Shown in pieces: positions 52,579 to 59,060 of a stretch of 64,000 bases of DNA; position 1 is the stretch's first letter; every line of letters begins with the position of its first letter. The notes under the pieces are model-generated. The model saw nothing but the letters and a program-made list of their open reading frames with translations. It searched no databases and had not been told where the DNA came from. The translations under genes were made by a program, and so were the position numbers. The stretch comes from Gottschalkia acidurici 9a (GTDB lineage Bacteria > Bacillota > Clostridia > Tissierellales > Gottschalkiaceae). The stretch spans positions 1,051,115 through 1,115,114 of the forward strand of contig NC_018664.1 of assembly GCF_000299355.1 (NCBI RefSeq), in the 5' to 3' direction.

Positions 52579-54264
52579 TTGATAATAGGATTAGATGTTG
52601 GTGGAACCAATATAGATGCAGTTATAATATATAATAAGGAAATTATAAATAAAGTAAAAAAGCCGTTATATAATAATGATTTGTTACAGTCTATCTTAGA
52701 GACACTAGACGAGCTTTTGTTAGATCATGATAAATCAAAAATAGAAAGAGTAAACTTGAGTACTACAGTATGCACAAATGCTATAGTAAAAAATGAAATA
52801 TCATCTGTAGGTATGTTTATTCAAAGTGGCCCAGGACTCTTAGTAGATTTTCTAGCTTGTGGACAAGAAAACAAATTTCTAAAAGGATCTATAGATCATA
52901 GGGGAAGATTAGTAAAAGATTTAGATATGGAAGAAATAGAGGAAGGTATAAACCTATTTAAGAAAAATAATATAGAAGCTTGTGGAGTAGTCACTAAATT
53001 CTCTACTAGAAATCCAAGTTTAGAAACAGAAATTAAAGATATTACAGATAGATATTTTAGATTCACAACAACGGGACATAGTATGTCAGGAAAACTTAAT
53101 TTTCCACGTAGAGTATATACAACCTATTTAAATTCAGCGGTACATAAAACATTTAATGACTTTTCTAATAAGATAATAGAATCCTTAAGAAAACAAAATA
53201 TAAATGCACCAGTATATATACTAAAGGCTGACGGAGGAACAATGGATATTAAATATGCTGAGAAAAAGCCAGTTGAAACTATATTATCGGGTCCAGCAGC
53301 TAGCTTTATGGGAATAAGTGCTTTGCTTCCTACGGACGTTGATAGTATATTTCTAGATATAGGGGGAACCACTACAGATATATTTTTTCTAGCTGATGGA
53401 GTTCCTTTATTTGAACCATTAGGTATAAAAATAGATAAATATAATACTTTAGTAAGAAGTATATATAGCGTATCTATAGGATTAGGTGGAGATAGCAGTA
53501 TAAATGCGGAAGATGGTAAGCTGAAAATAGGACCTAAAAAAGAAGCTATACCTTATTCTTTAGGAGGAAATAACCCTACACCAACAGACGCTATGATATA
53601 TTTAGGACTCATAAATGATGGGGATAAACATAAAGCAAAAGATATTATGAATAATCTTGGAAGTGAGCTGGCAATATCAGGAGAAGATACTGCAAGGTTA
53701 ATACTAGACACTATGGCAGATATCATAAAAAGTAAAGTAGATGAACTTCTAGAAGAAATAAATAGCAAACCAGTTTATACAGTTAAAGAGGTTCTTTATG
53801 GTAGAAAAATAGAGCCAAAGCTTATAAATATAATAGGCGGACCTGCTAAAAGTTTAGTTGGAGTATTAGAAAAAAGATTTAATATACCATGTAATTATCC
53901 TGAAAATTATCATATAGCTAATGCTGTAGGAGCTGCTTTAGCAGGAACTACTAAAGATATAACTATCTTAGCAGATACAGAAAGAAAAACACTATCTATT
54001 CCAGAGCTAGATATATATAAGCAGATAAATACTAAATACAACTTAAAACTAGCTAAAAAACAAGCTGTGGAATTATTAAAAAACAGTGTAGAGTTAAGTG
54101 ATGGTACAAGTGAAAATATGAGTGATAAAGATATAGAAATAACTGAAGAAAGTAGCTTTAATATGATAGAAGGATATTATAAGACTGGAGAAAATATAAG
54201 AGTACAGGCACAGATTAAACCAGGACTTATATATAGACTAAGGAGTGAAAATAAAAATGATTAA
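52579..54264 (+). CDS. Hydantoinase/oxoprolinase A-family ASKHA protein
   Basis: The 561-residue protein starts at TTG 52579 behind aaagggg. It opens with the HyuA N-terminal signature MIIGLDVGGTNIDAVI, then STTVCTNAIV near residue 62, KADGGTMDIKYAEKKPVETILSGPAAS near 215 and FLDIGGTTTDIF near 258, an actin-like ATP-binding core. It is shorter than 5-oxoprolinase subunits and has no hydantoinase-B partner beside it. Instead the deacetylase-fold gene overlaps its end by eight bases. Family members use ATP to open cyclic amides or activate small substrates. The substrate here is unknown, and the tight coupling suggests a two-step amide-processing pathway (inference). Confidence 0.85.
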   Translation: MIIGLDVGGTNIDAVIIYNKEIINKVKKPLYNNDLLQSILETLDELLLDHDKSKIERVNLSTTVCTNAIVKNEISSVGMFIQSGPGLLVDFLACGQENKFLKGSIDHRGRLVKDLDMEEIEEGINLFKKNNIEACGVVTKFSTRNPSLETEIKDITDRYFRFTTTGHSMSGKLNFPRRVYTTYLNSAVHKTFNDFSNKIIESLRKQNINAPVYILKADGGTMDIKYAEKKPVETILSGPAASFMGISALLPTDVDSIFLDIGGTTTDIFFLADGVPLFEPLGIKIDKYNTLVRSIYSVSIGLGGDSSINAEDGKLKIGPKKEAIPYSLGGNNPTPTDAMIYLGLINDGDKHKAKDIMNNLGSELAISGEDTARLILDTMADIIKSKVDELLEEINSKPVYTVKEVLYGRKIEPKLINIIGGPAKSLVGVLEKRFNIPCNYPENYHIANAVGAALAGTTKDITILADTERKTLSIPELDIYKQINTKYNLKLAKKQAVELLKNSVELSDGTSENMSDKDIEITEESSFNMIEGYYKTGENIRVQAQIKPGLIYRLRSENKND

Positions 54265-55573
54265 AGCTAAAAATAAACTAGGAATAGTTTTCTTTCCTGC
54301 TTTTGACTGGGCTATTAGTCCAAGTCATCCAGAAAGAGAAGAAAGGCTTTTATATACACAAGATCAAATATTTGAAGAAGGAATTGAGGATATTGAGGGC
54401 ATTAAATTCTTCAATCCAGTTATAGCAGAAAAAAAAGATATAGAAAGGGTTCACTTCTGTGTACCAGATGTAGAAGAAAGACTTACAAAGTCCCATCTAG
54501 TATCTGTGGGGGGAGCTATTAGAGCTGCTCAAGCAGTGATGAATGGTGAAGTTGATAAGTCATTTGCACTTATAAGACCTCCAGGACATCATGCACATAG
54601 AGTAGTTTATGGAGATAGAGGTTTCTGTATAGTAAATATGGAAGCAATAATGATTGAAAATATGAGAAAAAATAATCCAGATTTAAGGATTGCAATAGTA
54701 GACAGTGATTGTCATCACGGAGATGGGACTCAAGATATATACTGGAATGATAAAAATACTTTATTTATTTCATTTCATCAAGATGGAAGAACATTATATC
54801 CTGGTACAGGATCTATAGATGAATTTGGAGGACCCTCGGCATATGGATATAATGTAAATATTCCCTTACCTCCAGAAACAGGAGAAGAAGGATTTGCATA
54901 TGTACTAGACAACGTAGTCTTACCTATATTAGATGAGTATAAACCAGATATAATTATAAATTCAGCTGGACAAGATAATCACTATACAGATCCAATAACA
55001 AATATGAACTTTACAGCTCAAGGATATGCTGAGTTAAGTCGTAAGTTAAATCCTGATATAGCAGTTCTTGAAGGAGGATATTCAATAGAAGGAGCCCTTC
55101 CCTATGTTAATTTAGGAATAATTTTAGCCATGGCTGGACTTGACTATTCACAAGTACATGAACATGATTATGATAAAGAAAAATTAAAGCAGAGTAGAGA
55201 TATAACAAAATATATAGAGCGAGTTTCTGAAGAAGTCTATAGCAAGTGGAAAAATCGTGACAAACTTAGAAAAGAGAAATATGAAGGTAGAGAGTATATA
55301 GAGCAATCTAGACAAATATATTACGATACTGATGGAATAACAGAAAATCAAAAACAAGTATTTTTTACATGCAATAAATGTAGTGGATTAAATACAATAA
55401 ACTCTACTAGTAGTACTAGATTTCACATACTTGCAATAACTATACCTAGAGATGCATGCTCAAGCTGCTTAGATAAGGGATATAAACTATATAAAGATAC
55501 TTTATTAGATAACTTTACAAATGTATATCTTCAAGATAAAGTTAATGATAAATATTATGCTAAATCTAAATAA
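54257..55573 (+). CDS. Histone-deacetylase-fold amidohydrolase with C-terminal CxxC/CxxC extension
   Basis: The 438-residue protein has the arginase/deacetylase site complete: PPGHHAHR with H111-H112, VDSDCHHGDG with zinc ligands D151 and H153, SAGQDNHYTDP with D240, and LEGGYS with the catalytic-type Tyr at 275. This is the class II/AcuC-like and acetylpolyamine-amidohydrolase superfamily, which removes acyl groups from amines. Beyond about residue 320 comes an unusual tail with a charged linker and CNKC (372-375) paired with CSSC (401-404), a probable zinc ribbon. The ATG at 54257 lies within the end of the hydantoinase-like gene, behind aggag. The substrate is unknown. Confidence 0.87.
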   Translation: MIKAKNKLGIVFFPAFDWAISPSHPEREERLLYTQDQIFEEGIEDIEGIKFFNPVIAEKKDIERVHFCVPDVEERLTKSHLVSVGGAIRAAQAVMNGEVDKSFALIRPPGHHAHRVVYGDRGFCIVNMEAIMIENMRKNNPDLRIAIVDSDCHHGDGTQDIYWNDKNTLFISFHQDGRTLYPGTGSIDEFGGPSAYGYNVNIPLPPETGEEGFAYVLDNVVLPILDEYKPDIIINSAGQDNHYTDPITNMNFTAQGYAELSRKLNPDIAVLEGGYSIEGALPYVNLGIILAMAGLDYSQVHEHDYDKEKLKQSRDITKYIERVSEEVYSKWKNRDKLRKEKYEGREYIEQSRQIYYDTDGITENQKQVFFTCNKCSGLNTINSTSSTRFHILAITIPRDACSSCLDKGYKLYKDTLLDNFTNVYLQDKVNDKYYAKSK

Positions 55574-57076: not shown

Positions 57077-57187
57077 TAAGAAATGCCTGTAACAGTATCA
57101 CATTCTAATAAGTATACTAGAAAAGAGAATAGCCTATTTAAAGTAATATTGGACTATTCTATAGATCAAGTAATAGGAGTGATAATA

Positions 57188-57568
57188 TTGTTACATGGTA
57201 AAAAGTATATAATGAGAAATTTATTTAAATTTAGAATAGTTGATAACAAATCAGGTGAATTAACACTAAGAGCTAAAGTTTCACCACAGCTTTTTAACGA
57301 GCTAAAAGCATATGATGGATATTTAGAAAATGCCATAAATCTATTAGATGGTATTAGTGAATCAAAACTTGATTATGATAAAGGGAATATATTTATAAAG
57401 TATAGTACTGATGTTGTGGGAGAAGAAACAATAATGAACTGGATCAACAAAATAATAGATATGACGGTAGATAATTATGACTTAATATCAGAAAGCTCAG
57501 GAAGCGGTTTAGATGAAGTAATGGATGAATTACAACAAAAGTTAAAAAAAGAGGTTTTATATATATAG
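57188..57568 (+). CDS. Conserved protein of unknown function
   Basis: I place the start at TTG 57188, which has aggag eight bases upstream and gives 126 residues. The frame is also open from ATG 57083, but the extra N-terminal part is not protein-like and has no binding site. The product is soluble, with KFRIVDNKSGELTLRAKVS, ELKAYDGYLENAINLLDGI and EETIMNWINKIIDMTVDNYD followed by a Ser/Gly-rich turn and a final coiled coil. It has no cysteine motif, signal or membrane segment. I do not recognise the family. It sits between malQ and the MEMO/AMMECR1 gene and ends at a hairpin. Confidence 0.6.
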   Translation: MLHGKKYIMRNLFKFRIVDNKSGELTLRAKVSPQLFNELKAYDGYLENAINLLDGISESKLDYDKGNIFIKYSTDVVGEETIMNWINKIIDMTVDNYDLISESSGSGLDEVMDELQQKLKKEVLYI

Positions 57569-57656: not shown

Positions 57657-59060
57657 ATGGGCAAAATATTAGGCCATTTTATAACACCTCACCCACCAAT
57701 CATAATACCAGAGATAGGAATGGGTGAAGAAGATAAAGTAATAAATACTGTGAACTCCATGAAAAAGATAGCTAAAGATATCAGAGAGCTACAACCAGAT
57801 ACTATAGTTATAATTACACCACACGGTCCGATGTTTAGGGATGCAATAGCTATATCAGACATAGAAAATATAAAAGGTACGTTTGGCATATTCGAACAGC
57901 CAGATGTCAAACTAGAAAATAATATAGATGTTTCATTAACTAAAAGGATTATAAACTATACTCTTGAAGAAGATATATCTATAGCTTCTATAACTAATAA
58001 CTCTGAAAAAGAGTATGGTATAGTTTGTGAATTGGATCATGGAAGTATGGTTCCGCTTTATTATATAAATAGAGAGTATAAAGATTATAGAATAGTACAT
58101 ATAACTTACGGAATACTTTCCAAAGACGAACTCTATAAATTTGGAATGATTATAAAGCAAGCTATTTTAGATGAGGATAAAAGTGCTGTTATTATTGCGA
58201 GTGGAGATTTATCTCACAGACTAAGTAATAGTGGGCCTTATGAATACAGTCCTAATGGTTCTAAATTTGATAAACAGCTATTGACACTATTAGAAAGTGG
58301 AGACACACTAGGTGTGTTTACAATGGATAAAGACTTAATAGAAGAAGCTGGAGAGTGTGGACTTAGGTCATTTTACATATTACTTGGAATAATGGATACA
58401 GATGAAATTAAGGGAGAACTTTTATCTTACGAAGGAACTTTTGGAGTAGGATATGGAGTTTTAAAATTTATAACTAAAGATGGAGAAAAAGAAAGTTACT
58501 TAGAAAAAATAATAGAAATCAACAAAGAAGATATAATCAGAAAGTTAAGAAGCGAAGATATATATGTAAAACTTGCTAGAGAAAGTTTAAATTATTACTT
58601 AGAAAATGAAGAGTACATGCCTATACCTGAAAATATACCTGAGGACTTACTAAATATAAAAAGGGGTGTATTTGTATCTTTTAAAAAAGAAGGAGAACTT
58701 AGAGGATGTATAGGAACAATATTACCAACAACAAATAATGTTGTTTTTGAAATAATAAAAAACTCAGTTGAAGCTGGAACTAAGGATCCAAGATTTTTCC
58801 CTATAGACAATGACGAATTAGATTACCTAGAAGTGTCTGTAGACGAAATTATGGAACCAGAGCCTGCCACATTTGATTCATTAGATCCTAAAAGATATGG
58901 TGTTATAGTTAGAAGTGGAATGCGCACAGGTCTATTATTGCCTGATTTAGAAGGTGTAGATACTTCTGCAGAGCAAGTAGACATATCATTACAAAAAGCA
59001 GGAATATCTAAAAGTGACAAATACACATTAGAAAGATTCGAGGTTATAAGACATAGATAG
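57657..59060 (+). CDS. Fused MEMO-like/extradiol-dioxygenase-fold and AMMECR1 protein
   Basis: The 467-residue protein joins two domains. Residues 1 to about 275 have the class III extradiol dioxygenase/MEMO fold, with HFITPHPPIIIPE, IVIITPHGPM, CELDHGSMVPLYY and IIASGDLSHRL, keeping the metal-site histidines. Residues about 295-467 are AMMECR1, with RGVFVSFKKEGELRGCIGTI, then DPRFFPIDNDELDYLEVSVD, RSGMRTGLLLPDLEGVDT and SLQKAGI. Together with a radical-SAM enzyme these form the AmmeMemoRadiSam set, thought to modify an unknown protein or metabolite. In clostridia the A and B modules are often fused, and the radical-SAM gene normally follows; it does not here. ATG follows aaaggagg. Confidence 0.9.
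   Translation: MGKILGHFITPHPPIIIPEIGMGEEDKVINTVNSMKKIAKDIRELQPDTIVIITPHGPMFRDAIAISDIENIKGTFGIFEQPDVKLENNIDVSLTKRIINYTLEEDISIASITNNSEKEYGIVCELDHGSMVPLYYINREYKDYRIVHITYGILSKDELYKFGMIIKQAILDEDKSAVIIASGDLSHRLSNSGPYEYSPNGSKFDKQLLTLLESGDTLGVFTMDKDLIEEAGECGLRSFYILLGIMDTDEIKGELLSYEGTFGVGYGVLKFITKDGEKESYLEKIIEINKEDIIRKLRSEDIYVKLARESLNYYLENEEYMPIPENIPEDLLNIKRGVFVSFKKEGELRGCIGTILPTTNNVVFEIIKNSVEAGTKDPRFFPIDNDELDYLEVSVDEIMEPEPATFDSLDPKRYGVIVRSGMRTGLLLPDLEGVDTSAEQVDISLQKAGISKSDKYTLERFEVIRHR

Follow-up and report, generated by a model that had tools for sequence, protein, structure and literature searches.

To our knowledge, every HyuA-type ATPase of known function works with a metal-bearing B or partner subunit. 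CapA and 5-oxoprolinase use ATP to activate an amide carbonyl, and HyuB-type partners are themselves zinc or other metal hydrolases; a zinc enzyme of the histone deacetylase (HDAC) fold could, therefore, take that place. In caprolactamase, Asp11 and Asp295 of CapA lie in DxGGT phosphate motifs and their mutation sharply cuts product formation, and CapB, a zinc-site hydrolase fed by CapA, completes the reaction (PMC8453981). On the HDAC side, the closest described enzymes are the HdaH-type deacylases of cluster 1 (e.g., K. pneumoniae HdaH, 9glb; P. aeruginosa HDAH; and the propanil hydrolase PrpH), which include enzymes active on small molecules; in the bacterial deacylases of this cluster, the L1 loop mediates oligomer formation and substrate choice (PMC11532494). 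The literature searched (CC0, CC BY, and CC BY-SA papers) yielded no description of a HyuA-HDAC pair, and the same survey of bacterial HDACs makes no mention of hydantoinase or of a zinc ribbon or finger (PMC11532494).

Here, we describe such a pair in Gottschalkia acidurici 9a, found in a window (the whole stretch of DNA analyzed) of 64,000 nucleotides. Coordinates within the window, and within the loci used for comparison, are collected in Table 1.

Table 1. Features of the ATPase-deacetylase pair and of the loci compared with it (coordinates without a locus name refer to the window)
Feature	Coordinates	Strand	Remarks
HyuA/CapA-type ASKHA ATPase gene	52579..54264	+	561 aa, TTG start; ends ~70 residues short of CapA
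Asp6, first DxGGT phosphate motif	52594..52596	+	By motif, CapA Asp11; invariant, 52/52
DIGGTTTD, residues 260-267, second phosphate motif	53356..53379	+	Asp260 is, by motif, CapA Asp295; invariant in 52/52 aligned orthologs
AAGGAG within ATPase gene	54240..54245	+	Likely ribosome-binding site of deacetylase gene, judged from sequence
8-base gene overlap	54257..54264	+	ATG of deacetylase gene (54257) and TAA of ATPase gene (54262-54264)
HDAC-fold zinc hydrolase gene, with C-terminal extension	54257..55573	+	438 aa from ATG; earliest possible start GTG 54245
N-terminal L1-type loop, residues 12-40	54290..54376	+	FPAFDWAISPSHPEREERLLYTQDQ; nearly invariant; low confidence in monomer model
Catalytic His111-His112	54587..54592	+	Invariant, 51/51
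Zn ligands Asp151, His153 (DCHH)	54707..54718	+	Invariant, 51/51
Zn ligand Asp240	54974..54976	+	Invariant, 51/51
Catalytic Tyr275	55079..55081	+	Invariant, 51/51
C-terminal domain, residues 347-438 (~90 residues)	55295..55570	+	Predicted treble-clef-like; presumed to bind zinc
First CxxC, Cys372/Cys375	55370..55381	+	Invariant
Second CxxC, Cys401/Cys404	55457..55468	+	Invariant
161-aa ORF between malQ and AMMECR1 fusion	57083-57568
AMMECR1 + LigB/Memo fusion (AmmeMemoRadiSam A/B)	57657..59060	+	Possible functional neighbor only
EpmA after deacetylase gene	L079:9308-10249, L120:7080-7967, L123:5079-6017, L124:7679-8584, L128:7520-8431
NUDIX hydrolase beside pair, Desulfobacterales	L121:4443-4961, L070:9318-10714
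HyuA (~517 aa) beside DUF917/S-Me-THD protein, window's order	L107:4009-6724, L108:6738-9456
HyuA-like protein beside ~205-242-aa protein	L134:1527-4273, L135:3096-5930, L136:1375-4134, L137:1199-4146, L138:2921-5742
Closest HyuA paralogue within the order (646-650 aa)	L105:6191-8131, L106:4157-6109
Both genes with broken reading frames	L028:6239-9308		May be a MAG assembly error
HyuA gene with broken reading frame	L036:6346-8014		May be a MAG assembly error

The first gene encodes the only PF01968 protein of the Gottschalkia genome, and both of its Pfam matches, Hydant_A_N (8.7e-31) and Hydantoinase_A (1.3e-53), are far above cut-off. Its structure model (mean pLDDT 90.8) matches, over the full length of the protein, caprolactamase A, the ATPase subunits of acetophenone and acetone carboxylase, and NMHase with Z scores of 20-29; all other families, other ASKHA proteins included, fall behind this CapA-type group with Z of at most 18. 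MfnF and the activators of 2-hydroxyacyl-CoA dehydratases share the ASKHA core and give weak NCBIfam matches, but the ATPase lies far below the cut-offs of those families. It also has no conserved cysteines that could hold an Fe-S cluster and is, therefore, ruled out as an Fe-S ATPase of the dehydratase activator type. Compared with CapAB, OplAB (5-oxoprolinase), and HyuAB, the ATPase has the CapA fold throughout and both phosphate-motif aspartates, and it has a zinc-site hydrolase for a partner, as CapA has CapB. The differences are that the partner is of the HDAC fold rather than Hydantoinase_B, and that the ATPase has ~560 aa instead of ~690. Since it stops ~70 residues before CapA does, a tunnel of the CapAB type cannot be assumed.

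The second gene encodes the single PF00850 protein of the genome (2.2e-64), which carries the classical signature of a Zn-dependent deacylase: the fold, the Asp-His-Asp zinc site, the His-His pair, and the Tyr. A preliminary description of this DNA had proposed a complete deacetylase site followed by a C-terminal extension with two CxxC pairs, and both parts hold well beyond this genome, with the catalytic set (H111, H112, D149, D151, H153, H154, D240, and Y275) invariant in 51/51 aligned orthologs and all four tail cysteines present in 78/78. The model of the protein has a mean pLDDT of 89.7 and a pTM of 0.91, and, among solved structures, HdaH-type deacylases come closest to its HDAC part (Z about 42, ~320 residues superposed, about 26-31% identity; the VIA-align alignment rows cover residues 5-337). 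The fold and the catalytic residues are those of the HdaH-type enzymes, but about 100 extra C-terminal residues with a Cys4 motif, a different and nearly invariant N-terminal loop, and a near-obligate ATPase partner set this protein apart from them. The N-terminal segment FPAFDW...HPEREERLLYT, which matches the L1 loop of the cluster-1 enzymes by position, is nearly invariant, yet its pLDDT in the monomer model is about 52-68, which would be the pattern expected of an interface.

The tail is modeled with high confidence as strands, a CxxC, a hairpin, a CxxC that opens a helix, and then two strands. The order of these modeled elements fits a treble clef (a CxxC knuckle, a beta-hairpin, and a helix beginning with CxxC), and the tail presumably binds zinc. 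A profile of the tail found no match among PDB sequences at E values up to 10 in a sequence-level search, and none in Pfam above cut-off, the weak hit to DnaJ_CXXCXGXG (E 0.013) falling below it. The other HDAC paralogues listed in Desulfobacterales match only up to about position 337 of 436 and, therefore, are without the tail. The preliminary description had set absence of the tail from close relatives as evidence against a conserved system; it is the presence of the tail that was found.

A single-sequence search of genome contigs with the HDAC-fold protein returned 342 relatives, of which the best 80 are 59-78% identical across phyla, nearly all of them end-to-end. Their record titles name Tissierellia, [Clostridium] ultunense, Tepidanaerobacter, Thermosediminibacter, Thermovorax, Thermohalobacter, and Desulfobacteraceae. 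Relatives also occur in MAGs labeled Sphaerochaetaceae, Bacteroidales, Kiritimatiellae, Riflebacteria, and Acholeplasmataceae, some of which may be misbinned. The adjacency is not limited to Gottschalkia, since a HyuA homolog lies immediately upstream of the HDAC gene in 71 of the best 80 loci. The eight-base overlap noted in the preliminary description is likewise the commonest spacing among relatives (25/66), and its frequent retention suggests joint production of both proteins. Pairwise distances of the ATPase and of the deacetylase correlate with an r of 0.95, to which the species tree also contributes. Plasmids carry no orthologs, only other HDACs with <60% identity and <80% coverage. No fusion of the two proteins was found; a 1078-aa frame in G288 that resembled one is an artefact of GC-rich overlapping frames. 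Two MAG loci, L028 and L036, have broken reading frames in one or both genes. Scans for promoters and terminators gave nothing beyond chance, and PHROG and PADLOC gave no match, so a phage or defence function was rejected.

Co-occurrence was assessed in two orders, with p values that ignore phylogeny. Among 249 genomes of the window's order, 28 have both genes, none has only one or only the other, and 221 have neither (Fisher p 1e-37); HyuA orthologs scored >700 bits here, and the next HyuA paralogues at most 261. Profiles of both proteins, run against the 249 genomes, place the HDAC-fold and HyuA orthologs in the same 28. In Desulfobacterales, both genes are present in 97 of 146 genomes and absent from 42 (p 3e-28), with four genomes having only the first and three only the second; draft assemblies are included in this set. 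At least 12 Desulfobacterales genomes keep both genes although they are not adjacent, for example at 2.83 and 6.26 Mb in one single-contig genome (G370) and at 5.67 and 1.91 Mb in another (G372). The two genes, therefore, need not be co-translated, and that both are kept even when unlinked is what most strongly points to a shared function. The analysis thus confirms a conserved, near-obligate two-protein system, as the preliminary description had supposed.

One would expect a HyuA-type ATPase to be found with HyuB. The preliminary description saw none beside this ATPase, and Hydantoinase_B (PF02538) is indeed lacking from the entire Gottschalkia genome and from all 28 carriers of the window's order, in which respect the pair again differs from CapAB, OplAB, and HyuAB. 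HyuB occurs in 8/249 genomes of the order, none of them a pair carrier, and each time within a few kb of a different HyuA paralogue. It follows that the ATPase of the pair works without HyuB.

Other HyuA proteins of the window's order also have neighbors of another kind. At L107 and L108, a HyuA adjoins a DUF917 (S-methyl-thiohydantoin-desulfurase-like) protein without HyuB; such pairs resemble ours in joining a HyuA-type ATPase to a hydrolase-like protein other than HyuB, but differ in the fold of the partner and in the ATPase subfamily (about 520 aa). At L134-L138, in genomes without HyuB, HyuA-like proteins (709-724 aa) have as neighbor a protein of ~205-242 aa with no annotation, possibly a further type of HyuA partner; a transporter-like gene often adjoins these loci as well. 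ATPases of this family, therefore, seem given to exchanging partners. The closest HyuA paralogue within the order adjoins no recognizable HyuB, DUF917, or HDAC gene.

The partnership of ATPase and deacetylase is well supported, and from the homologies we infer a substrate and a chemistry for it. The reading that we favor, at a little under even confidence, is that the two genes are halves of one ATP-dependent amide-hydrolyzing system. Somewhat more tentatively, we would regard the pair as a class of two-component ATP-dependent amidohydrolase where HyuB has given way, beside a CapA-type ATPase, to a zinc enzyme of the HDAC fold that has a Cys4 domain of its own. The HyuA-type subunit would spend ATP on activating the carbonyl of a stubborn amide (a lactam, hydantoin, cyclic imide, or similar; probably of the lactam or imide type), and the HDAC-fold subunit, in the place of HyuB, would open the activated amide by means of metal-bound water and the His-His/Tyr set. 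The pairing of the genes, their co-inheritance, the intact ATP and zinc sites, and the lack of HyuB in carriers of the window's order are observations, whereas a physical complex, this order of steps, and this class of substrate are what we infer. The Cys4 tail, predicted to be a zinc finger, and the N-terminal loop, which is nearly invariant, would be the likely places where the partner docks or an oligomer forms. Against a single system stand the facts that HDAC-fold enzymes normally need no ATP, that some Desulfobacterales have the genes unlinked, and that no fusion of the proteins was found. ATP-driven activation followed by zinc-dependent deacylation had already been suggested in the preliminary description; the conserved system at the base of that suggestion is upheld by the co-occurrence, while its chemistry is plausible by homology.

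As for the substrate, repair or recycling of an intracellular metabolite or modified residue (or a cofactor-type role) is more likely than nutrient degradation, because the flanks change and hold no consistent transporter or pathway genes. The Gottschalkia genome encodes PxpA in addition to the two genes of the pair, which makes 5-oxoproline less likely as the only substrate and leaves the pair unsupported as a simple replacement for 5-oxoprolinase. PxpA (PF03746) is found in 2/28 carriers and 57/221 other genomes (p 0.03, confounded by phylogeny).

Three other explanations should be kept in mind. The first, which we consider unlikely but would not set aside lightly, is that the two proteins catalyze different steps of a short pathway, one after the other, without forming a single enzyme: the deacetylase would take the acyl group off a metabolite that bears an amine, with no use of ATP, and the ATPase would activate the product or its precursor. 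The closest HDAC structures are, after all, deacylases of which some act on small molecules, and the unlinked copies in some genomes fit two free enzymes. Position 247 of the HDAC-fold protein, which we take, by motif and not by structure, to be the gatekeeper site of HDAC10 (Glu, in the DPEG motif), is Ile/Leu and not Glu in 51/51 sequences; N8-acetylspermidine is, therefore, not an obvious substrate. What speaks for one system instead is that HyuA-type ATPases of known function work with a metal-bearing partner and the carriers show no other known one, together with the overlapping genes and the often-kept spacing, which point to joint production.

The second explanation, a good deal less probable, is protein or RNA modification: the HDAC-fold enzyme would deacylate a macromolecule and the ATPase would drive or control this, in connection with AmmeMemoRadiSam in Firmicutes or with EpmA and EF-P in Desulfobacterales. 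Zinc-finger-like tails often bind macromolecules, and the neighboring genes are suggestive. In the window, an AMMECR1-LigB fusion lies 2.1 kb downstream of the pair, behind malQ and a 161-aa ORF. At three Firmicutes loci (L103, L055, and L061), AMMECR1-LigB and the AmmeMemoRadiSam radical SAM gene are just upstream of the pair, and at L059 one CpXC gene intervenes. In many Desulfobacterales, the gene next after that of the deacetylase encodes EpmA, the EF-P lysine aminoacylase (TIGR00462 above cut-off in both copies tested). None of this is constant, however. AMMECR1 is missing from 5/28 pair carriers of the window's order, present in 89/221 non-carriers, and near-universal in Desulfobacterales, so it was rejected as an obligate third partner; constant co-occurrence with the AmmeMemoRadiSam genes was not found, though they are adjacent in several lineages. 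No EpmA gene adjacent to the pair was seen outside Desulfobacterales. These genes are, therefore, leads and not parts of the system, and the 80 best loci, the flanks of which vary by clade, have no constant neighbor besides the ATPase gene.

Two observations on the surroundings may be recorded here. The 161-aa ORF has no Pfam match above cut-off and a weak resemblance to HMA/CopZ (E about 0.03). In Desulfobacterales, a NUDIX hydrolase recurs beside the pair in two arrangements, one of which includes a GDPD gene.

The third explanation, an ordinary AcuC-like lysine deacetylase with the ATPase as regulator or bystander, accords with PF00850 and the intact site but is very improbable, being strongly disfavored by the almost strict co-occurrence of the two genes, linked or not, and also opposed by the enzyme's own tail, its strong conservation across phyla, and the tail-less paralogues listed in Desulfobacterales. 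AcuC itself, the lysine deacetylase of acetyl-CoA synthetase, is encoded in the acu operon with acuA/acuB.

The best reading of the pair remains that it brings a new, HDAC-fold partner to the theme of HyuA ATP-dependent hydrolases. Enzymes of the HDAC fold are textbook ATP-independent catalysts, and a lineage hardly ever found without a dedicated ATPase would extend the superfamily to energy-coupled chemistry. If this reading is true, the HDAC superfamily would gain in this pair its first member coupled to ATP, nearly a core trait of Desulfobacterales and otherwise scattered among anaerobes, and HyuA ATPases would be modular activators able to trade one hydrolase partner for another (HyuB, DUF917, and HDAC). 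It would also give a function to two genes, currently labeled in databases only as 'hydantoinase/oxoprolinase' and 'histone deacetylase', which about two thirds of the Desulfobacterales sampled here possess.
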